64,000 nucleotides of DNA, taken from a virus. The stretch is from positions 1 to 64,000 of the IMG/VR virus record IMGVR_UViG_3300015371_000016. One strand, given 5' to 3'. The first letter of the stretch is position 1, and every line of letters starts with the position of its first letter. This document shows positions 2,808 through 49,911 of this stretch, in pieces. The position numbers and the translations under genes are program-made. The notes under the pieces are model-generated. The model was not told the DNA's origin. It made no database searches and saw nothing but the letters and a program-made list of their open reading frames with translations.

Positions 2808-5800
2808 CTAAAGCGGCCCAGTTGGCGTGAAGCTGTACCACTGACCACTGTCGTTGACATGCCAGATTACGGCGCCGATGCGCATTATCTGGAGCGCGTT
2901 GTGGCCGTTGGCGTAAGCGTTATTAACCATAACCGCATTGGGTTGTCCGCCACCTGACGGCACGATGGTCCACACGTTGTTCGAGGCATCCGTCACCGAT
3001 CCGCTGCTCAGCGTGCAATAGCGGATGATCGGACCCGCGCTGTAGTTCGAGGCGGTTTGTAGCTTGAACTCAGGAAAGTAGGAACCGTTGTTCAGTCCGC
3101 CGCCTGTGGTCGGTGGAGACGTGGCGATCGTAATCGAGCTTGTGGTCTGCGCCGGCGAGCTTAGATTTCCCGGCGCTCCCGGAACTAGCGGAACACCACC
3201 GCCCGTGCTGGTCAGTATCACCACCGTCTCAGATGGCACCGAGACCGATGTCAGGCTGGCTTGTGTGCCAATCTGCGGCGTCGGGTTCTGCGGTGCTCCC
3301 GGAGAATTCTTGCCGATCTCCCAGCGTGAAATCGTGCCGCTAAGCGTGGCACCGGAGACCGCAATATTAACCGTGCGCGATGTGGTCGTGTCGTAGTTCA
3401 CGAGCATGATCGCGAATGAGGTCTGGTTAGGCTTGACCGCGACGATCGCCATATTCGCTAGCGTCGTGCTGGATGTATATTCCGGTCCATACACCGACTG
3501 CCCAGCCTTGCCGAGCACGTAGCCATGCGCGCTGACTGAGGTATTGTTGCCCTTGATGGCACCGATGACGCCCATGGCGTTGATGTTCTCTAGCCCGCCC
3601 ATCTCCATGCCGGCAGCGCTTTTGAACAGGCCGATCAGATACGCTCCGGCATAGACGCCACCCATGTAATAGCCGGTTTCGTTGGCAAACTCGCTCATGT
3701 TCCAGTCGAGAACCGCGAACGGCGCATTCGCCAGCGGAGTGCCTGACAGCGCATTGCGCTGAGTAACTGAGTCTCCGCTATTGTAGCCCTTCGGCCCGTA
3801 AGCTGTAGTCAGGCTGTCCTGGATAGGCACACCAACCGGTCCGCTTTGCGGATTGACCGGAAAGGACATCCAGCAGATACCGACGTTCGGTGCGCGAGTA
3901 GAGCCTACGGCATTCGCGAAAGAGGTGTTCGCACCGACAGCCGGATGCCACTGAGCCGGACCCCAGATGCGATAGTTCGCGTTGACGCCTTTTAGGGCGT
4001 CGAAGATAGTATTGAAGTAACTATTAACCGTCGCCTGCGACGCACCCTCGCCATTACCGAGGCCGCCGTCGTCCATCCATAGCGTGCCGACGTTCCAATC
4101 CATGAACATCGAGCCGTAGCCGTTCGCATTCAGATAGTTCGCAAGAGCCACTGCCCGGCTGGCCCATTGATTGGCGGTGCCGCCACTGATGCTATGCGCC
4201 ACGCCCATTACGCCACGCACATCACCTTGACAGAACTGGCTGATGAATGGGACGAGATTGTTAAAATCCGTGAAATCGCCGGCCGCGACTTTTCGATCAA
4301 GCTCCCAGTCGGAATTTATGTTGATCATCGCCGGCTTGAGCTGCGCATTCGCGGTGCTGCGGAATGTCGCGTTCGAGAAATCCCCGCCGAAGATCGAACT
4401 ACGGAACCCGAATAGTGCCTTTTGCATCGTCTTGCCCGTGGGCGAGCCGAAGTTGACCGTGGCGTTATTATTCGTGCCGGTCGGGATGACGTTGTAGCTA
4501 TTCGAGGTCGCGCTTACGGTGGTCTGCGTCGAATCACGCACAGAGGTCGTCAGCGTCACGGTAGTGGTAGGCGCCGAGACCGCTGGATGTGTGAAAGACC
4601 ATGTCGTGAGGGTGACCGATGCGCCGGCAGGCAGCGCTACATAGTTTCCAGCGTTATCTCGCCATTGCAGCGTCGGGATCGTGGTGCGATTGCTGATCGT
4701 GCCGGAAACAGTGTAAGGCACCGCGTCGGTCTGCTGTCCGACATTATTGAACGTCAGTGCATATACACCGCCCGCCGCGACCGTCGTGACTTGCTGGATC
4801 GCACTGAGTGGACTGTTGCCCGTCGTGTTCGACACGTAGGCGGAGAAGTCATACTGAGTCCCGGCATTGAGACCGGTCGCGTTGATCCCAGGAGAGATCA
4901 GCGGCGAGGACGTTGCGACAGGTCCCACCCAAGAAACGGCGCCGTTGGCGATGGTTCCGGTGGTCGTGAAGCTATACCATTGCCCGCTATCGTTGACGTG
5001 CCACGCGACAGCACCTATCCGCAACACCATCGTCGCGTGATGGCCGTTGGCATAAACCCCGTTCACCAGAACGGCATTCGGCTGGCCGCCGCCGGTTGCA
5101 GCTATCGTCCATACATTGCCGAACGCGTCAGTCACCGAGCCAACCAGCGGTGTGCAATAGGCCGCCGCATCGACGCCGGTAGACGCCCAGGTCGTGGTGC
5201 CTGTCTGTCGCCGCTGTACCTGGATAGTGCCAGCGTCCAGCGTGCCGCCTGTCGTAGGAAGCGTGAGAGCCACCGGGACGCTTGTCGTGGTCGGCGTGCC
5301 GAGTGCGATCGATGGCGCGTCAGGGACCGTCGTGCCCGGCGTGCCGCCCGTGCTGCTGCCGACATTGACCAGCGAGCCGAACGCCGAGACGTAGGGAATA
5401 TACCACGCGGCGCACACACCCGTGGTACCGCTGGCAGGATTGGTGAAGCTCACCGTGATCGGCGCACCGTTCGACATCGGCAGCGTGTTGATCGAAATGC
5501 ACGTGAGCTGCTGACCGCCGCTGATCCGGGCGTCAGGGTGCGGCGTCCATGCCTGCCCAACAGGATCGGCGATAGCGATGTTGCTGGCGCCAGGATCGAA
5601 AGCATGCACCAGGATCACGCCAGAGGACTGCGGCGGGAATGGATAGACGCGGTAATAGTCGATGTCCGCGAAAGCGGGCAGGGTCGCTGGCACAGGCGTG
5701 CCGTCGCCGACGAGAGCCGCGCTGGAGGTCTGGAAATACGCGAAGGACGGACGGAGCTGAAAGTCACCACCGGGAGTGGCGATCGAACCGACCGGGCGGC

Positions 5801-42080: not shown

Positions 42081-42509
42081 TTTATTTACGTTCTTTGACA
42101 GATGCATCCGAACAGCGCAGCGCTTCGATCGATCGATCGCGGCCCGTGTGCGGGAAACGTCTCGATGACGAATCCGCATAGCAACACGTCTCAATGACGA
42201 CGCTAATACACGATACCGTTGCGCAATCTATGCTGTTCGATTCTGTCCGCTCTTTCGCTGTCGGTGTATACGCTTCTGTTTACCACATCACTGTGAGGGT
42301 CTGCCGTTTCGGGGCCGCCCGGATGGGCCACATGATGTCCGAACAGAGGGTATATACGATCAGGGCGCATCGCGCGCTATGCAGATCAGCACGATACACA
42401 ATTGAATCAGCAGCCCTACTCTACCCCAGCGCATAAGCACGGGATGGGTAGGACTTGGTGTGTTCCTCCTCTGGAAAGCGCGTGTAGCCCATTAGGGCGG
42501 GATTGCGCG
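42081..42509. other. Non-coding leader region of the early cassette
   Basis: No gene supported. An 80-codon frame at 42194-42436 lacks a ribosome site and a protein-like pattern. The region is the presumed 5' leader between the promoter area and the first twister ribozyme; it could hide further regulatory RNA. Confidence 0.4.
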
Positions 42510-42510
42510 C

Positions 42511-42583
42511 TTGTAATGCAGCAGGACCGGTCCCAAGCCCGGCGCCGCAGGGTTTCCCCCCCAAGCGGAATGCAGAGGGAAAC
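42511..42583 (+). ncRNA. Twister ribozyme 1
   Basis: Contains TAATGCAGC, then P4 with CCGG-TCCCAAGC-CCGG, an extra stem CCGC/GCGG (with an inner GGG/CCC) and AATGCAGAGGG. P2 is TGCA with TGCA. The L4 CCC can pair with the GGG of GAGGG, and GC of CAGC with GC of AAGC. P1 is weak here (only T-T with A-A). Expected cleavage lies between T42514 and A42515. Confidence 0.75.
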
Positions 42584-42594
42584 GAACCAAACTT

Positions 42595-42627
42595 GCGGCG
42601 GGCGCTCCGGCGTCCGTCGCTCTTTTT
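42595..42627 (+). terminator. Intrinsic terminator or attenuator before the first cassette gene
   Basis: 11-bp stem with two G-T pairs (GCGGCGGGCGC, 42595-42605; GCGTCCGTCGC, 42610-42620), TCCG loop, then TCTTTTT. It stands between twister 1 and the first gene's ribosome site, so it may stop read-through from upstream or attenuate the cassette. Confidence 0.7.
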
Positions 42628-42658
42628 CCTGAAGAGACCCACAGAGGAGCACCGCTTT

Positions 42659-42925
42659 ATGAAGGGAATAATTCCGTATGCCCACGACAATATCCGCGGG
42701 AGTCGCGACCAGCCATGCGGGTTCGTCTATCTAGCGGAAAACGGTCACGGCATCGGACGCATCGGCTACGCTTACACGTCGTCTCTAGAGATTTTCAACT
42801 GCAAGGAAACTCCCAACGGAGTCAATATCGACGTGCTCCATCGTGTCCGTAGATATATCAAGCAGCAGTTTCCGCATTTGCCGAGAGAGCGTGACTTTAT
42901 GACGCAGTTACGGGATCAACCCTGA
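42659..42925 (+). CDS. Early cassette gene 1, unknown
   Basis: 88 residues (MKGIIPYAHDNIRGSRDQPC...). The start follows the cassette leader ACAGAGGAGCACC (42641-42653). A compact alpha/beta protein with a basic C-terminus (HRVRRYIKQQFPHLPRERDF). No family recognised. Its transcript end is marked by the hammerhead at 42956. Confidence 0.65.
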   Translation: MKGIIPYAHDNIRGSRDQPCGFVYLAENGHGIGRIGYAYTSSLEIFNCKETPNGVNIDVLHRVRRYIKQQFPHLPRERDFMTQLRDQP

Positions 42926-42955
42926 CGACACCAGCGCGCTGTGACAGCGGCGCGC

Positions 42956-43005
42956 GCGGTCTGCGGATACTCTCCGCACTGAAGAGGCCACGAGGCCGAA
43001 ACCGC
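42956..43005 (+). ncRNA. Type III hammerhead ribozyme
   Basis: Stem III GCGGT/ACCGC closes the molecule. Cleavage triplet GTC (42959-42961), stem I hairpin TGCGGA-TACTC-TCCGCA, core CTGAAGA (42979-42985), stem II GGCC-ACGA-GGCC, core GAAA (42998-43001). Every element of the hammerhead consensus is present in the right order. A GC-rich hairpin precedes it. Expected cleavage after C42961. Confidence 0.85.
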
Positions 43006-43029
43006 ACAGTGCATACAGAGGAACACCAA

Positions 43030-43293
43030 ATGTCGAAGATCATGGACCTACCGCAGGCAGTCAAGCGCGGATATCTACTGGCATGCCGGCCTCAAGGAGT
43101 CACACGAGCGCAGCTTACCAGTGAACTCGACAGCCAAATCGGCTGGAAGCGATATCTTGAGCGTATGGCAAAGTCAGACGCGCGCAGGCTTCTCAAGCCA
43201 AAGAAAAGCGACGACGGCTCCGTTCTATACCGTGTTGTTGGTCACAAAGCCGCAGCAAGCAGGGTCGGAGTAATGCGAAAGGTGGCTCGATAA
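43030..43293 (+). CDS. Early cassette gene 2, winged-helix-like
   Basis: 87 residues behind leader ACAGAGGAACACC (43015-43027). The segment GVTRAQLTSELDSQIGWKRY, then LERMAKSDARRLL, is shared with the C-terminus of the next product (KLNELRANIGWKSYLARIGK), so they are paralogous domains. Similar small domains (DUF3489-like) bind DNA. Possibly a host-directed or regulatory DNA-binding protein. Confidence 0.65.
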   Translation: MSKIMDLPQAVKRGYLLACRPQGVTRAQLTSELDSQIGWKRYLERMAKSDARRLLKPKKSDDGSVLYRVVGHKAAASRVGVMRKVAR

Positions 43294-43323
43294 TCTTGGA
43301 ATACAAAAAGGGAAACGGGCACT

Positions 43324-43839
43324 ATGTCCTCGTCGCACTTTAGAAGCATGAACCAGCTTCGGTCAATGAATTGGGATAGCAAAGAGGCCGCAATCAAGGA
43401 ACTTAAGCGCAATGGCTTTGCTCCTCACGGAGAAGACTACACCATTGCCGAAGTTTCGGACGGTCATTACCAGATCGTTGATCGTGCTAATTCGTCAGAC
43501 GGCCACCAACAAGCAGCACGTAAAGAGCCGACAAAGAAAGCGGCCCCTTCTTCAAAGAAGGAAGTCGCGAAGAAGGAAGTCGCGAAGAAGGAAGCTCCGA
43601 AGAAGCAAGCGGAGCCTTCTTCTAAGAAGGGACCAGCTCCTCGCCAAATGTCCGCGTGGACCAAGCAAGCGCTGGAGATGGCAAAGAGCCCAAACGGAGC
43701 TAAGCGTGCTAAGCTTAACGAGCTTCGTGCCAATATCGGCTGGAAATCCTATCTAGCTCGCATTGGCAAAAAAGATGGTCTCGTGATGGTCGTCACTAAA
43801 GACGACGAAGGATTAGTCTACGCTCTAGTAAAGCGGTGA
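43324..43839 (+). CDS. Early cassette gene 3, lysine-rich linker plus winged-helix-like domain
   Basis: 171 residues. About 1-60 is a small N-terminal domain. About 65-110 is a Lys/Glu/Ala repeat (KKEVAKKEVAKKEAPKKQ) like histone H1-type tails. About 112-171 is the same domain as in gene 2. Weaker leader (AAGGGAAACGGGCACT) than the others. Probably a DNA-binding or nucleoid-associated-type protein. Confidence 0.65.
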   Translation: MSSSHFRSMNQLRSMNWDSKEAAIKELKRNGFAPHGEDYTIAEVSDGHYQIVDRANSSDGHQQAARKEPTKKAAPSSKKEVAKKEVAKKEAPKKQAEPSSKKGPAPRQMSAWTKQALEMAKSPNGAKRAKLNELRANIGWKSYLARIGKKDGLVMVVTKDDEGLVYALVKR

Positions 43840-43840
43840 T

Positions 43841-43915
43841 TTTTGTCGAAACACACGAGCGCCGAAGCGTTCGTGTGTCGCTGGGAGATGCCCTACCCAG
43901 CCTGAAGAGACAGGG
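43841..43915 (+). ncRNA. Type II hammerhead ribozyme
   Basis: Read in type II order: stem II strand TGTC (43844-43847), GAAA, an 11-bp stem III with CGAA loop (43852-43877), triplet GTC (43877-43879), stem I GCTGGG/CCCAGC (43880-43901), CTGAAGA (43902-43908), stem II strand GACA. It begins two bases after the stop of gene 3. Expected cleavage after C43879. Confidence 0.85.
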
Positions 43916-43934
43916 CACTACAGAGGAACACCAC

Positions 43935-44228
43935 ATGACAAAGACAAACCCCAATAGACACCGAGCGGCCTTGTCCTATATCGAGGCGGTTAACGACCAG
44001 TTGCTCGATCTAGTGGCGCCGATCGAATGCTTGAGTAGCTTCGAAGCCGTGTCACCAGACGAGCTGGAGGCGCTGAAGAAGTGCACCAGCGATCTTCTAT
44101 CGGTCGTGACCATCCTTCGCTCTGTCCAGAGCTATCACGAGCGCAAGCAACGCGCCTCCTCGATAGTCGTCACCACTTCGTCGCAGGATATAGCGCGGGA
44201 GCGGCGAACGCGAGCCGGAGGAAGATGA
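43935..44228 (+). CDS. Early cassette gene 4, helical protein
   Basis: 97 residues behind ACAGAGGAACACC (43920-43932). Mostly helical (YIEAVNDQLLDLVAPIECLS, DELEALKKCTSDLLSVVTIL) with a basic end. Coupled to the next gene by ATGA. Unknown function. Confidence 0.65.
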   Translation: MTKTNPNRHRAALSYIEAVNDQLLDLVAPIECLSSFEAVSPDELEALKKCTSDLLSVVTILRSVQSYHERKQRASSIVVTTSSQDIARERRTRAGGR

Positions 44229-44401
44229 TCCCGTATTTGCTTGTATTCTGGTTCCTCTTGCCTGTGTCACAGGCAGGAGACCCGCCTGTAAGCGAAACAA
44301 TGATCATCGAGATGTCGTCTAAGGAGCAGTGCGAACGTGCACAACGAGAACTGAACAAGCGTGAAGACTGTGTGGCGGTATGCCACAAGGTCCGCTCGTG
44401 A
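44225..44401 (+). CDS. Small secreted protein
   Basis: 58 residues: signal peptide MIPYLLVFWFLLPVSQAG, then a short mature part with three cysteines (QCERAQ, DCVAVC). ATGA coupling upstream and GTGA downstream. Could act in the periplasm, for example on superinfection or envelope stress; unknown. Confidence 0.6.
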   Translation: MIPYLLVFWFLLPVSQAGDPPVSETMIIEMSSKEQCERAQRELNKREDCVAVCHKVRS

Positions 44402-44703
44402 GATGGTTCACTCTGTGCAGCGTAATGGCGTGGACGATCAGCCTGACCTTCCAGCCCATTAAGCTAATCGCTGCACAGCTCGCGGCGCTGTCTGTTATGT
44501 TTATTGTTGGAACGAGACCGATCATGGGACCGGCGCACGAATTCCGCCGCGCCCTCAGAGAGGGAGTTAATGATGTCTCACGTATGCTCCTCAGAGCACG
44601 AACCGCGGTGGCTGATCGATGCTCGTGGAATAGAGTGCTGTCTGGTGTGCGATCTCTGCGAAGCGGAGAAGCGAAGGCAATACCGCCCGGAGATATTCAC
44701 TGA
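44398..44703 (+). CDS. Membrane protein
   Basis: 101 residues from GTG (GTGA coupling). A hydrophobic N-terminal part (WFTLCSVMAWTISLTFQPIK, LIAAQLAALSVMFIVG) gives two short membrane segments. The last 40 residues overlap the next gene in another frame and may be meaningless or truncated in reality. Confidence 0.45.
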   Translation: MRWFTLCSVMAWTISLTFQPIKLIAAQLAALSVMFIVGTRPIMGPAHEFRRALREGVNDVSRMLLRARTAVADRCSWNRVLSGVRSLRSGEAKAIPPGDIH

Positions 44704-44734
44704 TCCTGACTATGATCACTATGAAGAACTCTAG
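44570..44734 (+). CDS. Small zinc-ribbon-like protein
   Basis: 54 residues from a double ATG with AGAGGGAG upstream. ECCLVCDLCEAEKRRQYRPE holds a CxxC pair, and SHVCSSEHEPRWLIDARGI precedes it. Such small phage proteins are common and probably bind zinc. Followed by the hairpin and twister 2. Confidence 0.65.
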   Translation: MMSHVCSSEHEPRWLIDARGIECCLVCDLCEAEKRRQYRPEIFTDPDYDHYEEL

Positions 44735-44744
44735 CGATTCAGGA

Positions 44745-44764
44745 AGCGGGGCTTCGGCCCCGCT
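44745..44764 (+). other. UUCG-capped hairpin before twister 2
   Basis: 8-bp perfect stem AGCGGGGC/GCCCCGCT with a TTCG loop and no T run, ending one base before P1 of the twister. After ribozyme cleavage this would be the 3' end cap of the upstream mRNA. Confidence 0.7.
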
Positions 44765-44765
44765 G

Positions 44766-44827
44766 GCTTAATGCAGGAGTGCCGGTCGCAACCCCGGCCA
44801 CCGCATCGTGCGGGATGCAGAGCGAGC
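44766..44827 (+). ncRNA. Twister ribozyme 2 (covariant copy)
   Basis: P1 GCT/AGC, cleavage step T44769-A44770, P2 TGCA/TGCA, P4 GCCGG/CCGGC, extra stem CCGCA/TGCGG. The L4 reads TCGCAACC and the 3' core GAGCG. Compared with the consensus, CCC-GGG has become CGC-GCG and the second pseudoknot GC-GC has become GG-CC. Both pseudoknots keep pairing. Confidence 0.85.
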
Positions 44828-44841
44828 ACAGAGGAGCACCA

Positions 44842-45321
44842 ATGGCTAGAGCAATCGTGATCGATGCCGAGAAGCGCGAGCTGCGCTATATCGAGATACC
44901 AGACGGGTCCAATAGCCTTCCTATACTGCGCGACATTGTCGATGGATGGATCAGCGTCGCATATACGTGGAACGACAAGGATGTACTTTATGTGGATGAC
45001 GAAGGACTAATGAAAGGCCGAGAGCATTACTTCCGACTTTTCGATCGCACTGATGGCCAACCACTCGCGGGCAATGGCGTTATCCTCGGTGAGGAAGTGA
45101 TCGACGAAGAAGGCGACTTCGTGAATTACCTCGACACGCGACTGACCATCGAATTCCTTTCTAGTCGCGTTCAATTCTTGACTAAGCAACAAGCAATCGC
45201 GTGGTTCAAAGGCAACGCTTCAGAGCCGATGATCACGGTCACCACGATTGATGCTGACAAGATCAAAACCGAAGTCATCGCCCGATATGCGATTTTGATT
45301 CCCGAAGATGACGATGATTGA
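44842..45321 (+). CDS. DUF3846-like protein
   Basis: 159 residues behind ACAGAGGAGCACC (44828-44840). MARAIVIDAEKRELRYIEIP, then LPILRDIVDGWISVAYTW and LYVDDEGLMKG, is the DUF3846 pattern common in phage early regions. The C-terminal half (after about 95) is an extra helical domain ending PEDDDD. Function of the family unknown. Confidence 0.7.
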   Translation: MARAIVIDAEKRELRYIEIPDGSNSLPILRDIVDGWISVAYTWNDKDVLYVDDEGLMKGREHYFRLFDRTDGQPLAGNGVILGEEVIDEEGDFVNYLDTRLTIEFLSSRVQFLTKQQAIAWFKGNASEPMITVTTIDADKIKTEVIARYAILIPEDDDD

Positions 45322-45328
45322 GAATCTA

Positions 45329-45350
45329 CCGCGCCGCTTCGGTGGTGCGG
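45329..45350 (+). other. UUCG-capped hairpin before twister 3
   Basis: 9-bp stem CCGCGCCGC/GTGGTGCGG (two G-T pairs) with a TTCG loop, seven bases after the stop codon of the DUF3846-like gene and directly before the twister. Confidence 0.65.
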
Positions 45351-45404
45351 ACTTAATGCAGCCAACGGCGGTTCCAAGCCCGCGTGTAATGCAGAGGAAG
45401 CCCC
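45349..45404 (+). ncRNA. Twister ribozyme 3
   Basis: Cleavage step T45354-A45355, P2 TGCA/TGCA, P4 GCGG-TTCCAAGC-CCGC, 3' core GAGGA. The L4 triplet is TCC and the 3' triplet is GGA, a compensatory change of the CCC-GGG pseudoknot. P1 is partly shared with the preceding hairpin (CT/AG plus GG/CC). Confidence 0.8.
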
Positions 45405-45422
45405 TTACAGAGGAAACACCAC

Positions 45423-45659
45423 ATGAAGGAAGACTTACTGCAAGCTTCCGCTCGTAGAAAAGCGGCGGCCATGGAGCTGTTCAACAGTCCACGTGGTCGA
45501 TATCTACTAGGACAGGCCCTAGCGCTTGCCGTCAAAAGCATGCGCTCCGAACGCTATCCGGAGACCTCGAACATCGCGGACATGGAGCTGCTCGGCAACG
45601 AGATATTCGCGTTCGGCTATCGCCTAGAACTAGTGAAAGGGACACGCGCAACATGCTGA
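45423..45659 (+). CDS. Early cassette gene, small helical protein
   Basis: 78 residues behind ACAGAGGAAACACC. Helical (RKAAAMELFNSPRGRYLLGQ, ALALAVKSMRSE). Overlaps the next gene by seven bases. Unknown. Confidence 0.6.
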   Translation: MKEDLLQASARRKAAAMELFNSPRGRYLLGQALALAVKSMRSERYPETSNIADMELLGNEIFAFGYRLELVKGTRATC

Positions 45660-46075
45660 TCATGTACCACTCGATGGATATCACTGATCTCGCACTAGCT
45701 GCTGCCCTTACCGGCGGCCCTAATCCTAATAGGGCCTATCTCGCCTACGATCTATTCCTCAAAGGCTACTACGAAGCGGTCGCCGGCACTAACGCTGAGC
45801 CGAACTTTATCGGTCAACTGAAGCTGCTTAAGATCACACAAAACAAGCGAGGCAAGTCCTGGTCTCGCTATCGTCACAAGAGCCTTCTGGTCAACGATCC
45901 GGTGCGCGCTGTGCTCGGCATACGAGAATCACAAACAGGCGACGTGATCGAGGAACAGAACAGTCGGGGCGTCATCAAGATGCGCTGGGTAGTCGATCTG
46001 ATCAAAGCACCCGAAGACGATCCTGTTTCGTGGATGGTCGGCTTCACGCCGATGCCCGGAGACTATTCCCACTGA
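45653..46075 (+). CDS. Early cassette gene, unknown
   Basis: 140 residues (MLIMYHSMDITDLALAAALT..., RAYLAYDLFLKGYYEAVAGT, then a basic middle TQNKRGKSWSRYRHKSLLVN). No family recognised. Ends just before the hairpin and twister 4. Confidence 0.6.
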   Translation: MLIMYHSMDITDLALAAALTGGPNPNRAYLAYDLFLKGYYEAVAGTNAEPNFIGQLKLLKITQNKRGKSWSRYRHKSLLVNDPVRAVLGIRESQTGDVIEEQNSRGVIKMRWVVDLIKAPEDDPVSWMVGFTPMPGDYSH

Positions 46076-46081
46076 TTGAAG

Positions 46082-46104
46082 TCGGCGGGATTCCTTCTCG
46101 CCGA
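46082..46104 (+). other. Hairpin before twister 4
   Basis: 9-bp stem TCGGCGGGA/TCTCGCCGA with loop TTCCT, six bases after a stop codon and directly upstream of the ribozyme. Confidence 0.65.
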
Positions 46105-46160
46105 TTTAATGCGGCCACCCATAGGGTGTCGGTCCCAAGCCCGGACAAACGCAGAGGGTC
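46104..46160 (+). ncRNA. Twister ribozyme 4
   Basis: Cleavage step T46107-A46108, P2 TGCG with CGCA (compensatory change from TGCA/TGCA), an extra hairpin CACCC-ATA-GGGTG, P4 TCGG-TCCCAAGC-CCGGA, 3' core GAGGG. Both pseudoknots match the consensus. P1 is not obvious. Confidence 0.8.
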
Positions 46161-46184
46161 CTTCCATACAGAGGAAACATCACT

Positions 46185-46520
46185 ATGCCGAGACGACCTA
46201 GAAAGAAGGAGGCGGCTAACGGCGCTTCTAAAAACGGGGAAACCAGATGGCAAGGCCATGATCCGGTTTTCTTCCATCGACAGCAAGTCAAAGTCGGCGT
46301 GCGCTTTGTGAATTTCGGCCGAATGGATCACGGCTCGATTTGGGAAGTAATTCAGATTTACACCCACGTCGTGCTGGCGAGCGGCAACATACGTCGCTCG
46401 CAGGTCGAACAAGTGGAGCGACTGTCGGATGACGTTCTGATACGCAGGCAAGGCCGCAATGATCCGCGTCGCTGCAAATTTTCGACGCTCTCTTACTCAG
46501 CTATCTGGAGGATATCGTGA
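46185..46520 (+). CDS. Early cassette gene, unknown
   Basis: 111 residues behind ACAGAGGAAACATCACT. Basic N-terminus (MPRRPRKKEAANGASKNGET), beta-like middle (KVGVRFVNFGRMDHGSIWEV). Coupled to the next gene by an overlap. Unknown. Confidence 0.6.
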   Translation: MPRRPRKKEAANGASKNGETRWQGHDPVFFHRQQVKVGVRFVNFGRMDHGSIWEVIQIYTHVVLASGNIRRSQVEQVERLSDDVLIRRQGRNDPRRCKFSTLSYSAIWRIS

Positions 46521-46972
46521 GCCGTTCACGCGAGACTTTCGACGTATGGTGCGCCGTGCGAGTCGAAGCTGATGCCGGCACTAGACTTGAGATCGTCAGG
46601 AACGAAAAAGGAGATTGGGTTTGCCTCGGCGCAGCCCCGGTCAATAAGACCCTCGCTCTTCCGGCTCCAAATGCCAAGTCTCAAGGCGCCGAGTTGACCA
46701 AGAAACTCCTAGGTGAGCGCAGCAAACGCTACAAACCCGGGAATCATCCACTAGATGAAGCAATCTTGGCTGCTATATCAAAGCCGATCGATGCCCAGCA
46801 TATTCGTGAAGCTTTGGGAATAGCCCCAGAAAATCCGCTAGCTAAATGTTTGACTCGCAGAGTCGCCAAACTAAAGAGCGAAAAGCTTATAAGGGTTTTC
46901 CCTCCTGACAGCCATGTTATGTGGCCTCGATACGTTCGAGCGTCCAACACCAACCTAAAAGTGGTAGCCTGA
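46517..46972 (+). CDS. Early cassette gene, winged-helix-like C-terminus
   Basis: 151 residues from GTG. About 85-140 (LDEAILAAISKPIDAQHIRE, KCLTRRVAKLKSEKLIRVF) looks like a winged helix. Possibly a transcription regulator of the phage or host; unknown family. Confidence 0.6.
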   Translation: MSRSRETFDVWCAVRVEADAGTRLEIVRNEKGDWVCLGAAPVNKTLALPAPNAKSQGAELTKKLLGERSKRYKPGNHPLDEAILAAISKPIDAQHIREALGIAPENPLAKCLTRRVAKLKSEKLIRVFPPDSHVMWPRYVRASNTNLKVVA

Positions 46973-46975
46973 CTA

Positions 46976-47021
46976 GACGGAAGCGGCTCGCTGTGGCGCG
47001 CCGTTTTCGCCCCGTCAGGGG
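46976..47021 (+). other. GC-rich structured leader
   Basis: GACGG (46976-46980) can pair with CCGTC (47012-47016), and CCCC-GTCA-GGGG forms a competing hairpin at 47010-47021. No known ribozyme core found. Lies where other genes of the cassette carry a hairpin plus ribozyme. Confidence 0.4.
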
Positions 47022-47041
47022 AAACAGAGGAGCACCAATCT

Positions 47042-47356
47042 ATGAAAACAGCGATTTTGGCTGCTGTCGCTATAGCTATGACCTCACTGCCGGCGCTGGC
47101 AAGGTATGATGGCCACCTAAGAACTAACTGCCGAGACCCTGCTGTTCTGGAAACGGTTCGTCTCGGTATCGCTAGGCGAGTGAGTCCTGTGTTCCTGCAA
47201 GCGTCCTGGCAGAATGTATTTACATTCCCGAACCCAGGCGGCTGGGACGGCCTAGAATGCTACGGCACACTGAATGCCGGCTCCACCTTTAGAGTCGTTT
47301 ACTTCGGCAACGTGGAGATCGGCGGCCAAGAATACATTTCCTGGAGGGCTCGCTGA
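47042..47356 (+). CDS. Small secreted protein
   Basis: 104 residues behind ACAGAGGAGCACC. Signal peptide (MKTAILAAVAIAMTSLPALA), then a mature domain with two cysteines (TNCRDPAV, LECYGTL). Periplasmic or extracellular; function unknown. Confidence 0.65.
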   Translation: MKTAILAAVAIAMTSLPALARYDGHLRTNCRDPAVLETVRLGIARRVSPVFLQASWQNVFTFPNPGGWDGLECYGTLNAGSTFRVVYFGNVEIGGQEYISWRAR

Positions 47357-47367
47357 TCTGACCTGGA

Positions 47368-47401
47368 CGCAGGCTGCTCACTCGCGGGTGCGCAGTCTGC
47401 G
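47368..47401 (+). other. 10-bp hairpin after the secreted-protein gene
   Basis: CGCAGGCTGC pairs with GCAGTCTGCG (one G-T) around a 14-base loop, no T run. Equivalent in place to the hairpins before the twisters, but no recognisable ribozyme follows in the 30 bases before the leader. Confidence 0.5.
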
Positions 47402-47445
47402 CCTCGGCCAGAATAGTCTGACTGAGGAATACAGAGGAACACCAA

Positions 47446-48378
47446 ATGACTGCACGAAACTGGATCGGCGGCAGGAATGGCAACCAAGCCTCTTCTGCTG
47501 CCAACTGGTCTCCTACTGGCGCACCGCTATCGGGCGACACGCTGACGATCGATCACGGCACGATGCAAGTCACTGGCAGCGCGCTCGGAAACGACGATCT
47601 GCACGTGACGGGCAATGCGACGGTCAGTTTTCACCAGAGCTACGGCGATCATCTGATCATCGGCGTGCCTGGACCGACCAAGCTGAACGCGACGGTCAAC
47701 CTATCGAATTCTGCCGTCGCGATCAATCAAGGCTGGGATAATCTGAAGATCAATGCCGCCGGCACCAACTGGCTCGCTCTGTCTAGCTATCCCGGCTACA
47801 GAGCGACCAACGGATCGGTGACGATCAAGAATTCAGGAACCCTAGTCGGGAGCGTCGGCGGCCTAGGCACGAGCGTGCGGATCGATGGCGGGACGTTCTA
47901 CAATCAGGACTCCCATGTCGGTCTGGACGGCGGATCGTTCGTGATCAACTCCAAAGTCGCGGGAGACGGCTCCTGGACTCTGGGCACGTATCACGCACCG
48001 TATGCCAAGCTCGAATTCATGCAATCGGTCAGCTCAGAGCAGACGATAAACCTGGAAAGCGGTGTGGGATACGGGCTCCTACAGATCGACCAGCCATCTA
48101 CCTTCCGGGCCAAAATCGGGTGGGCGAGTGAGCAAGCGATCGTCGATCTGAATAAGCTCGCCGCCGATAGCTACAAATATGATGCCTCGGCCGGTGCGCT
48201 CGACTTCTTCAGCGGCAACCGGATGATCTATCAGCTCCACGTCGAGAAAACGTCGCCCTACGTCGGAACTTACGCGGTCGCCAAAGGAACCTCGACCGGC
48301 GGTGCCGGCGTGGAACTCTATTCCAAGGACTTCGCGTGGAAGCTTCCGCACGGCGCTGATCTGCCAGTGCACACCTAA
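47446..48378 (+). CDS. Beta-solenoid-like adhesin-type protein
   Basis: 310 residues behind ACAGAGGAACACC. Starts MTARNWIGGRNGNQASSAAN, followed by GDTLTIDHGTMQVTGS and repeating Gly/Asn/Thr strands, as in beta-helix or autotransporter-like surface proteins. No signal peptide. It is the largest gene of the early cassette and seems out of place, since such proteins are usually virion or surface parts. Role unknown. Confidence 0.6.
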   Translation: MTARNWIGGRNGNQASSAANWSPTGAPLSGDTLTIDHGTMQVTGSALGNDDLHVTGNATVSFHQSYGDHLIIGVPGPTKLNATVNLSNSAVAINQGWDNLKINAAGTNWLALSSYPGYRATNGSVTIKNSGTLVGSVGGLGTSVRIDGGTFYNQDSHVGLDGGSFVINSKVAGDGSWTLGTYHAPYAKLEFMQSVSSEQTINLESGVGYGLLQIDQPSTFRAKIGWASEQAIVDLNKLAADSYKYDASAGALDFFSGNRMIYQLHVEKTSPYVGTYAVAKGTSTGGAGVELYSKDFAWKLPHGADLPVHT

Positions 48379-48383
48379 CACTA

Positions 48384-48410
48384 CCCGCACCGTGTCGGGG
48401 TCGGTGCGGG
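48384..48410 (+). other. Hairpin before twister 5
   Basis: 9-bp perfect stem CCCGCACCG/CGGTGCGGG with a nine-base loop, directly adjacent to the twister P1. Confidence 0.7.
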
Positions 48411-48468
48411 GCTTAATGCAGCAGAGCTGGTCCCAAGCCCAGCGCCCTACAGGGAATGCAGAGGGAGC
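48411..48468 (+). ncRNA. Twister ribozyme 5 (best consensus copy)
   Basis: P1 GCT/AGC, cleavage step T48414-A48415, P2 TGCA/TGCA, P4 GCTGG-TCCCAAGC-CCAGC, extra stem CCC-TACA-GGG, 3' core GAGGG. All conserved twister elements are present, with both pseudoknots pairing. Confidence 0.9.
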
Positions 48469-48487
48469 AACAGAGGAACATCATCAC

Positions 48488-48692: not shown

Positions 48693-48932
48693 ATGGATAT
48701 TCTCAGCACATTCGGTCTCGTCGTGACATTCGCGACTTTAGCATACTCCATTTTTCAGATGATCCAAATCAGGAAACAGCGCCGTCAAGCTGAGGCGTTA
48801 AACCGTCTTCTGATGATACTGGCCGCCCAGTCATTCATGAACCAGCCCCTGCCGATATGGATCGCGTGGTCGCTAATGACTGGCCTTCGTTTTCATCTGG
48901 AAATCGAGAAGAAGGAGGCTGAGAACTCTTGA
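48693..48932 (+). CDS. Small membrane protein
   Basis: 79 residues. One N-terminal membrane helix (MDILSTFGLVVTFATLAYSI), a basic coiled part (IRKQRRQAEALNRLL) and a second hydrophobic patch (PLPIWIAWSLMTGL). AAAGGAA lies upstream. Unknown. Confidence 0.6.
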   Translation: MDILSTFGLVVTFATLAYSIFQMIQIRKQRRQAEALNRLLMILAAQSFMNQPLPIWIAWSLMTGLRFHLEIEKKEAENS

Positions 48933-48934
48933 CT

Positions 48935-49076
48935 AAGGGAGCGCGCTTAGCGTGGCTCTCTTAGCCTGGAGTTCACCCAGGTAACCCCTGACCAGCGGGC
49001 CGACCTACCGGCCAACGACACATGGTTACGCGGTCTCGGTTGTGGACACTGGTCGGGCCGAGACCAATTTCCTGCA
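48935..49076 (+). ncRNA. Candidate structured RNA with interlocking stems
   Basis: A 10-bp hairpin (CTAAGGGAGC/GCTCTCTTAG) is followed by several complementary pairs in crossing order: GTAACC/GGTTAC, GACCAG/CTGGTC and GGTCTCGG/CCGAGACC, with CCTGG/CCAGG and GGCC/GGCC hairpins. Crossing helices imply pseudoknots. It occupies the same place as the ribozymes before other cassette genes, but I recognise no class. Confidence 0.5.
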
Positions 49077-49091
49077 AGCAGAGGACACACA

Positions 49092-49463: not shown

Positions 49464-49507
49464 AGCGGTTGCTACTGAAGGGACACACCAAGAGCTGATT
49501 CAGATCA

Positions 49508-49537
49508 GGGCGGTACTTTCGGGTGCCGCCCTTTTTT
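49508..49537 (+). terminator. Intrinsic terminator of the early cassette
   Basis: 9-bp stem GGGCGGTAC/GTGCCGCCC (one G-T pair) followed by T6. Strong classical terminator. Confidence 0.9.
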
Positions 49538-49911
49538 ATCCTGCTCGATTCGCAAGCGCCTTCACATTGGCGAAGCCAAGAGAGCTTACTGTCGCAATTA
49601 GGCTACAGTGCACTGTTACCGCACCATTTCACGTGGCCGCTGTCAAGCGGTTTCACGGGTCCGAGAGACCGAATTTCACGGAAACGCGCGTGGCGCCGCA
49701 CGTTTTGGATATAATCTGTGCACAGTATCGCTGCACAAACGAACGGGACCGCCCAGTGACCAGCAAGCGGTCCCGCCCACCAACCTACAGAGGAACGCAC
49801 CAATGCCACGCTCACGCCCAGCGATCTCGCGGTAAAGCTCTGGCAGTTCCGTGTTCAATGTAGCGTTTCGCGGGTTTCTTGTCACCACGCTTTCTAATGT
49901 AGACGTTCCCT
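49538..49911. other. Intergenic region with a -10 box and a leader without a gene
   Basis: No substantial gene. A perfect TATAAT is at 49710-49715 (plus strand, no good -35). A hairpin GGGACCGC/GCGGTCCC is at 49746-49774, followed by the cassette leader ACAGAGGAACGCACC. That leads only to a ten-codon frame (49803-49835, MPRSRPAISR). It looks like a promoter plus leader whose gene has been lost, or a leader peptide. Confidence 0.5.

Follow-up and report, generated by a model that had tools for sequence, protein, structure and literature searches.

The co-directional gene cassette at about 42.4-49.5 kb of the window, the 64,000-nucleotide stretch of viral DNA analysed here, carries an RNA element in each of its internal gaps of 69 nt or more (nine in all), and comparison with related phages shows one ribozyme class standing in for another at orthologous junctions, an observation that is new in this analysis. 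The nine gaps hold four twisters, two hammerheads and three copies of an unrecognised motif; junctions within the cassette at which genes overlap or lie no more than 30 nt apart hold no element. The cassette is closed by an intrinsic terminator (49507..49538, + strand). We consider it probable that the cassette is transcribed into a single RNA that self-cleaving elements cut apart at the long junctions, and that selection acts on the cut and the ends that it leaves, not on the class of the cutter. The elements and their structures, the hairpins ahead of the predicted cuts and the class exchange at orthologous junctions were computed here; we infer that the cassette is expressed early and transcribed as one RNA.

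An earlier note on this DNA had proposed seven self-cleaving elements. All seven were recovered where it had placed them, on the coding (+) strand, with clear significance for the type III hammerhead and four of the twisters (E values of 6e-6 to 2e-12). They had been described as all lying between genes, which holds for the six in internal gaps; the remaining one, a twister, precedes the first gene. The note had overlooked a further kind of element, present in the gaps at 46968, 47358 and 48923. The cassette itself is a fast-changing set of small genes without known function. Megablast of 40.2-50 kb against annotated phages gave no match, and a search for relatives of the 310-aa protein g47446 found none. 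Pattern scans based on the SD, including 116 genome contigs, returned mostly chance hits, and one of them yielded L133 and L132.

Covariance-model searches placed five twister type P1 elements on the + strand of the window, with E values of 2e-12 to 0.0025 per genome. The leader twister (42510..42583; E 5.7e-6; predicted cut 42514/42515) has T1 CCC/GGG and T2 C-G. The others lie at 44765..44828 (E 0.0025, the weakest, with a diverged core; predicted cut 44769/44770), 45350..45402 (E 2.6e-9; predicted cut 45354/45355; T1 UCC/GGA), 46103..46162 (E 2.3e-12; predicted cut 46107/46108; T1 CCC/GGG) and 48410..48469 (E 1.5e-8; predicted cut 48414/48415). All five contain the core UAA-NGCNGC / GGUCCCAAGCCC / GCNGAGGG together with P2 and P4, and where the cores vary they stay complementary. 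When the T1 register is set such that T1' comprises the third base of GAG and the next two, the tertiary contacts T1 and T2 can pair in all five, through compensatory changes in the twisters at 44766 and 45354. Both contacts are swapped at 44766, where T1 reads CGC/GCG for CCC/GGG and T2 reads G-C for C-G, and these compensatory swaps support the weak element. Among nine twisters whose T1 is non-canonical, eight retain three T1 pairs, a G-U being included in one case, and the ninth, L007, has one mismatch.

The window copies share with RF03160 (twister type P1) the UAA cleavage motif, P2, P4, the internal loops, T1 and T2, but differ from it in a P1 that is weak in two copies and in a stable hairpin before the cut in all. 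Three of the four inner P1 pairs are present in three copies, two at 42511 and one at 46104; because P1 is weak in these last two, they may cut slowly. In the Rfam covariance-model check proposed in the earlier note, the five twisters and the type III hammerhead were matched by E value, but none reached its gathering score (67.2 bits for twister type P1), which is a curator's cut-off and not a structural feature, and RF02276 missed the type II hammerhead. Since only 4 of 30 phage records with an exact twister core pass the gathering score, while 30/30 match at E<=0.001, this cut-off is too strict here. A survey of terL relatives detected no twister beyond the window's own record, and the arrangement is therefore not essential in the wider phage group. 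The second twister-positive record, L019, is not a terL relative and has two identical twister copies.

The type III hammerhead (42954..43007, +; predicted cut 42961/42962) was detected with the Hammerhead_3 model at E 1.9e-9, and has the core with stems I and II closed and stem III open. The type II hammerhead (43844..43916, +; predicted cut 43879/43880) has the core GAAA / UH / CUGANGA, with stems I and III closed and stem II open, and a loop I pseudoknot, GCCCU/AGGGC. A search with RF02276 left it undetected at E<=0.01. A hammerhead descriptor run over both strands of the 64 kb, however, returned two sites and no others, a type II at 43848 and a type III at 42956, and gave no hits in 10 dinucleotide shuffles. 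In the orthologue at L133:2521 the stems differ and yet remain paired. The descriptor, with its lack of hits in shuffles, this re-pairing and the loop pseudoknot support the type II element. The core CUGANGA/GAAA/UH, the three stems and the type II loop I pseudoknot are as in RF02276/RF00008 (hammerhead types II/III); the differences are the failure of RF02276 at 43848 and a U4C core in two relatives.

The related phages carry ribozymes and the unrecognised motif as well, and the slot always runs from the stop codon to the SD. Orthology of the junctions, which rests on homology of the neighbouring genes, allowed their occupants to be compared. The leader slot holds a twister in the window, an HDV-like candidate in L042, a type III hammerhead in L133 and, identified by eye, a U4C type III hammerhead in L383. 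Below the g43324 homologue there is a type II hammerhead in the window and L133 and the unrecognised RNA in L383; the unrecognised RNA likewise stands in L042 for the type II hammerhead above g43935, and in L383 for the twister above g44842. Above g46185 the twister is retained in L133 (at about 843), with T1 changed from CCC/GGG to GGC/GCC. The HDV-like candidate scores below threshold (19.2 bits, E 4.1), and a nested double pseudoknot with a CNRA-type J4/2 can be fitted to its sequence. On this fit it would share with HDV-like ribozymes (e.g. RF02682) a 7-bp P1, P2, P3, P4 and a GGCUAA joining segment, all within the leader slot, but it differs in that sub-threshold score, and the window itself has no such element. 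Since an HDV descriptor run over the cassette gave as many hits in shuffles, the assignment in L042 depends on overall fit.

It could be argued that the ribozymes play no role in expression and are passive leftovers or selfish sequences that move, for example, with exchanging gene modules. The rapid change of the small cassette genes, the twin copies in L019 and weak-looking cores (the twister at 44766 and the U4C hammerheads of L042 and L383) would agree with such an origin. We consider it highly improbable, since tertiary contacts and stems change compensatorily at orthologous sites, placement between stop codon and SD is strict, and one class is replaced by another at the same junction. These three features argue instead for selection on cutting. 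The earlier note's interpretation is partly supported: ribozymes of unrelated classes divide one co-directional cassette.

Stable hairpins precede the predicted cuts. On the + strand they lie at 42476..42512 (its end 2 nt short of the leader twister's cut), 42930..42960 (immediately ahead of where the type III hammerhead is cut), 44745..44764, 45329..45350 and 48384..48410 (5' of the twister cuts at 44769/44770, 45354/45355 and 48414/48415, respectively) and 46079..46107 (ending at the cut at 46107/46108); in the type II hammerhead its own stem III serves as the pre-cut hairpin. The leader hairpin is nearly identical in L042, where it lies ahead of the HDV-like candidate. Among the classes whose cleavage site is at the 5' end of the ribozyme, 8/9 family sites have a stem with 7 pairs or more within 4 nt, against 18.6% of random places (p 1e-5), and other phage twisters have a stem of at least 6 pairs in 27/33 cases against 34% (p 2e-8), both statistics having been calculated after the pattern was noticed. 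We considered these hairpins as terminators and rejected this, as no T run follows them. At 46104 the pairing of the preceding hairpin extends as far as the cleavage site itself, which could inhibit cutting.

We propose that one cassette transcript would be cut in infected cells at its long junctions by the self-cleaving RNAs. By the known chemistry, such cleavage leaves a 2',3'-cyclic phosphate on the upstream piece, and a stable hairpin at a distance of 0-5 nt would close the new 3' end of that piece. The downstream gene would gain a 5'-OH leader consisting mostly of folded ribozyme, just ahead of the SD. The mRNA ends would in this way be fixed with neither RNase E nor a terminator, and the messages of adjacent genes would become independent in their stability. 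The expectation of single-gene mRNAs was inexact, as the predicted cuts would give pieces of 1-4 genes. By its exchangeability with the ribozymes, the unrecognised RNA may do the same job in the other three long gaps.

These three gaps share one pseudoknotted RNA without known class, at 46968..47021 (A CCUGAC/GUCAGG, hairpin B, C CCCC/GGGG), 47358..47427 (A CUGACC/GGCCAG with an A.C mismatch, hairpin B, C CCUC/GAGG) and 48923..48981 (A GAACUC/GAGUUC, hairpin B, C CCUGG/CCAGG), all on the + strand. There are 18 copies in five related phages, three in the window and 15 in four relatives, and their pairs covary; L383 has it at eight junctions. Rfam covariance models, including those of ribozyme families, matched none of the sites. 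A search of 289 alphaproteobacterial genomes under strict filters, run without a positive control, found no copy. A resemblance to permuted pistol or hammerhead was considered and dropped, since matching core nucleotides are lacking.

For these three sites we give even chances to a structure that does not cleave, be it a translational coupling switch at the stop codon, a nuclease-blocking pseudoknot or a protein-binding site. The 5' strand of the motif overlaps the stop codon of the upstream gene or lies directly next to it, so that a terminating ribosome would open the fold; its conserved unpaired bases are few (NGA, CC), and no Rfam class matches it. Against this, it stands in for the type II hammerhead and the twister at orthologous junctions in an identical stop-to-SD slot, and L043 and L383 place it at most junctions that are held by ribozymes in relatives. 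These exchanges make it a candidate ribozyme. That it is a new self-cleaving class, interchangeable with hammerhead, twister and HDV-like RNAs in dividing the operon, is a serious possibility to which we assign somewhat less than an even chance.

The earlier note knew of no described phage operon organised in this way, which was wrong: Perreault et al. 2011 (PMC3088659) proposed that clustered prophage hammerheads process operons into shorter mRNAs, and one triple hammerhead array was cut in vivo. There, as here, individual genes or short gene blocks of phage operons are bordered by more than one self-cleaving RNA. Those arrays, however, are of one class (types I-III), whereas twisters, hammerhead types and the unrecognised motif are combined here, and only here are there class replacement at orthologous junctions and, in a relative, an HDV-like candidate. 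Twister and hammerhead ribozymes are also reported to occur in common clusters and in the neighbourhood of Mu-like phage genes, the reason for phage-ribozyme associations being unknown (PMC10085705). As in the ribozyme-associated-gene motif strategy described there, the new RNA was found by its occupation of twister and hammerhead places, but unlike those motifs it matches no Rfam family. What is new here is the class exchange, the pre-cut hairpin (a tendency common to other phage twisters) and the unrecognised covarying RNA. That classes are exchanged at orthologous junctions, always in the stop-to-SD slot and in most cases behind a closing hairpin, indicates selection on the cut and its ends; the phage, it seems, divides one long message with whichever RNA cutter is available. 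By the same logic the unannotated motif is a strong candidate for a new ribozyme class. The orthologous junctions are a ready set of test constructs, and may offer natural designs for gene insulation in synthetic operons.

The leader also contains a segment, GGTGTGTTCCTCCTCTG (42457..42473, +), that is the reverse complement of the extended SD shared by the cassette genes. The segment is present in L042, L133 and L383 too, and in each of the four phages it is the best-pairing site for the cassette extended SD, which is restricted to the cassette genes and one orphan site just beyond. Together with the retention of a leader ribozyme slot of changing class in the four phages, this complementarity would suit a scheme in which cleavage by the known classes chiefly frees a leader RNA and sets mRNA 5' ends, by removing a triphosphate or a sequestering leader, with division of the cassette secondary. 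We regard this as unlikely: most of the ribozymes are located well inside the cassette, a long way from the leader, and the reverse search from the leader seed found many equally good targets elsewhere. As that search did not single out the cassette SDs, we treat the anti-SD idea as a lead only. Between the leader twister and the first gene, a terminator-like stem-loop followed by a T run (42595..42625, +) is a possible attenuator.

The cassette comprises seventeen small co-directional genes (42.66 to 49.46 kb), almost all without a known family, which adjoin the replication genes and are bordered by a divergent ParB-like gene on one side and an intrinsic terminator (49507-49538) on the other. 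Nine of its internal gaps are 69 nt or longer, and every one of these contains an element, namely a twister in four, a hammerhead in two and a new pseudoknotted motif in the remaining three; none was found at cassette junctions that overlap or span 30 nt or less. The single-gene mRNAs proposed in the earlier note are not what this layout predicts, as the seven recognised cuts would give pieces with one to four genes.

That note had counted five twisters and two hammerheads, to be abandoned if no Rfam model matched above threshold. The full IMG/VR virus record has 77,127 bases, of which the window is bases 1-64000. An Rfam search at gathering thresholds gave no ribozyme match in the window, but a covariance search ranked by E-value gave twister-P1 matches at 46103, 45350, 48410 and 42510, a weak twister match at 44765 and a Hammerhead_3 match at 42954. 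The gathering cut-off is too strict as a refuting criterion here, since 4 of 30 phage records with an exact twister core reach it, yet all 30 match at E ≤ 0.001. The seventh element, the type II hammerhead at 43848, was missed by RF02276. A hammerhead descriptor run on both strands of the window matches only 43848 and 42956, with no match in ten dinucleotide-preserving shuffles. In the orthologue of 43848 in the related phage L133 (position 2521), stems I and III are altered yet still paired, and the two share a pseudoknot between loop I and the 3' flank. The twister at 44766 scores only 21 bits; its T1 tertiary contact, with L4 loop CGC opposite the partner GCG, is a matched departure from the consensus (register: T1' starts at the third base of GAG and takes in the two bases after it), and in T2 a C-G pair is replaced by G-C. 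T1 of the twister at 45354 (UCC/GGA) is likewise compensatory, and twisters of other phages carry CAC/GUG, UCC/GGA and GGC/GCC. Taken with the E-value matches, the matched contacts at 44766 and the descriptor and orthologue for 43848 uphold the count of five and two.

The new motif begins with a strand of 5-7 nt (A) on or next to the upstream stop codon, followed by a short joint mostly ending in GA and by a hairpin (B). CCY comes next, then the strand with which A pairs and, lastly, the pairing partner of CCY; this last pairing (C) makes the fold a pseudoknot. A descriptor of this fold matches exactly three places in the window (46968, 47358 and 48923) and none in ten shuffles; it was built from these same three sites, so independent tests matter. 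A covariance model trained on the first seven copies found three further copies in the related phage L043 (E 1e-7 to 2e-4) and eight in L383, two of them weak (E about 0.01), the Shine-Dalgarno-type site (SD) contained in the model raising the scores. All are on the coding strand, downstream of a stop codon and ahead of an SD. Strand A pairs better with its own partner than with those of other copies (5.8 against 4.5 ± 0.23; 0 of 5000 permutations). Pairing C is stronger than that with shuffled downstream sequence; the automatic parse is unreliable for the two weak L383 copies. Stem A shows three to four pair types at the majority of positions. No Rfam family matched the new-motif sites. Beyond the third copy, in the same gap, about 100 nt (48982-49090) hold more strong complementary segments (GTAACC/GGTTAC, CCTGACCAG/CTGGTCGGG and GGTCTCGG/CCGAGACC). 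These cannot all nest, and we therefore read the region as another putative pseudoknotted RNA.

Related phages were reached via TerL homologues (L042 and L043), a pattern combining a hammerhead core with an SD (L133) or the new-motif pattern (L382/L383), and cassette genes were matched by BLASTP. At orthologous places the predicted ribozyme class differs. The leader has a twister in the window, a type III hammerhead in L133, a U4C type III hammerhead (by eye) in L383 and an HDV-like element in L042; the last (P1, P2, P3, P4 and a GGCUAA segment) is no more than a candidate, at 19 bits (E 4.1), and the hairpin ahead of it is almost identical to the window's leader hairpin. Hammerhead-like elements with CCGAUGA cores (U4C) occur at expected places in L042 (~340, minus strand) and the L382/L383 leader; a U4C core is still active in a viroid, and lowers activity but can function in vivo (PMC3088659). 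Below the g43324 homologue, the window and L133 have a type II hammerhead and L383 the new motif; above g43324 L042 has a type II hammerhead, L133 and L383 the new motif. Above g43935 a type II hammerhead in the window corresponds to the new motif in L042, and above g44842 a twister to the new motif in L383. Above g46185 both the window and L133 have a twister, the T1 change between them being compensatory. Because the new motif replaces type II hammerhead and twister at orthologous junctions, an economical though tentative guess is that it too may cleave itself; a non-cleaving element serving coupling or protection is at least as likely.

The cut lies at the ribozyme's own 5' end in twisters, type III hammerheads and HDV-like ribozymes, and follows stem III in type II hammerheads. 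Among the elements of the window and its relatives, those of the 5'-end-cutting classes have a separate stable hairpin ahead of them, while type II provides stem III itself. At 8 of 9 family sites of the 5'-end-cutting classes, a stem with 7 or more pairs lies no more than 4 nt from the cut, compared with 18.6% of random places (p 1e-5). For twisters of unrelated phages, with the threshold set at 6 pairs, the figure is 27 of 33 against 34% (p 2e-8); by a cruder energy criterion the excess is smaller (22 of 33 against 11.5 in shuffles). An intrinsic-terminator reading is ruled out because no T run follows these hairpins; in our reading, they would close off the upstream piece at its 3' end.

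Directly 5' of the first ribozyme, the leader contains a conserved GGTGTGT(T)CCTCCTCTG (window 42457-42473; minus strand of L042 at 5325, L133 at 3606 and L383 at 8684), often preceded by a covarying stem and complementary to the extended SD common to the cassette genes. This SD, ACAGAGGARCACC with close variants, has ten plus-strand sites between 42642 and 49788 and none elsewhere in the 64 kb; nine are at cassette genes and one is an orphan at 49788, past the terminator. A similar orphan lies near 5430 (minus strand) in L043. In all four phages the leader complement is the best-pairing sense site for the extended SD; the reverse search, from the leader complement, did not single out the cassette SDs. 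The ribozyme may release a regulatory leader RNA. A terminator-like stem-loop with a T run (42595-42625), possibly an attenuator, separates the leader twister from the first gene and has by eye no counterpart in L042 or L133.

The earlier note knew of no described phage operon of this kind, but clustered hammerheads flank genes in prophages, with processing into single-gene or operon-length mRNAs suggested and in vivo cleavage of a triple array demonstrated (Perreault et al., PMC3088659). PMC10085705 notes that twisters and hammerheads also cluster with one another and in the neighbourhood of Mu-like phage genes, the reason for which is not known. Other phage or prophage records carry one to three twisters along with as many as six type II hammerheads; in those of L032, L025, L036, L021, L027 and L031, twister is accompanied by two to six of the latter, and L132 has two type II hammerheads. 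On these grounds the window's array is a rich example of an arrangement already known. The literature searched, mostly open access and without the original twister papers, gave no earlier account of class replacement, the pre-cut hairpin or the new motif. The unrelated phage L019 has two identical twister copies (5775 and 6904) in different junctions and another repeated intergenic block (5331 and 6258), which would fit copying of junction modules within the genome.
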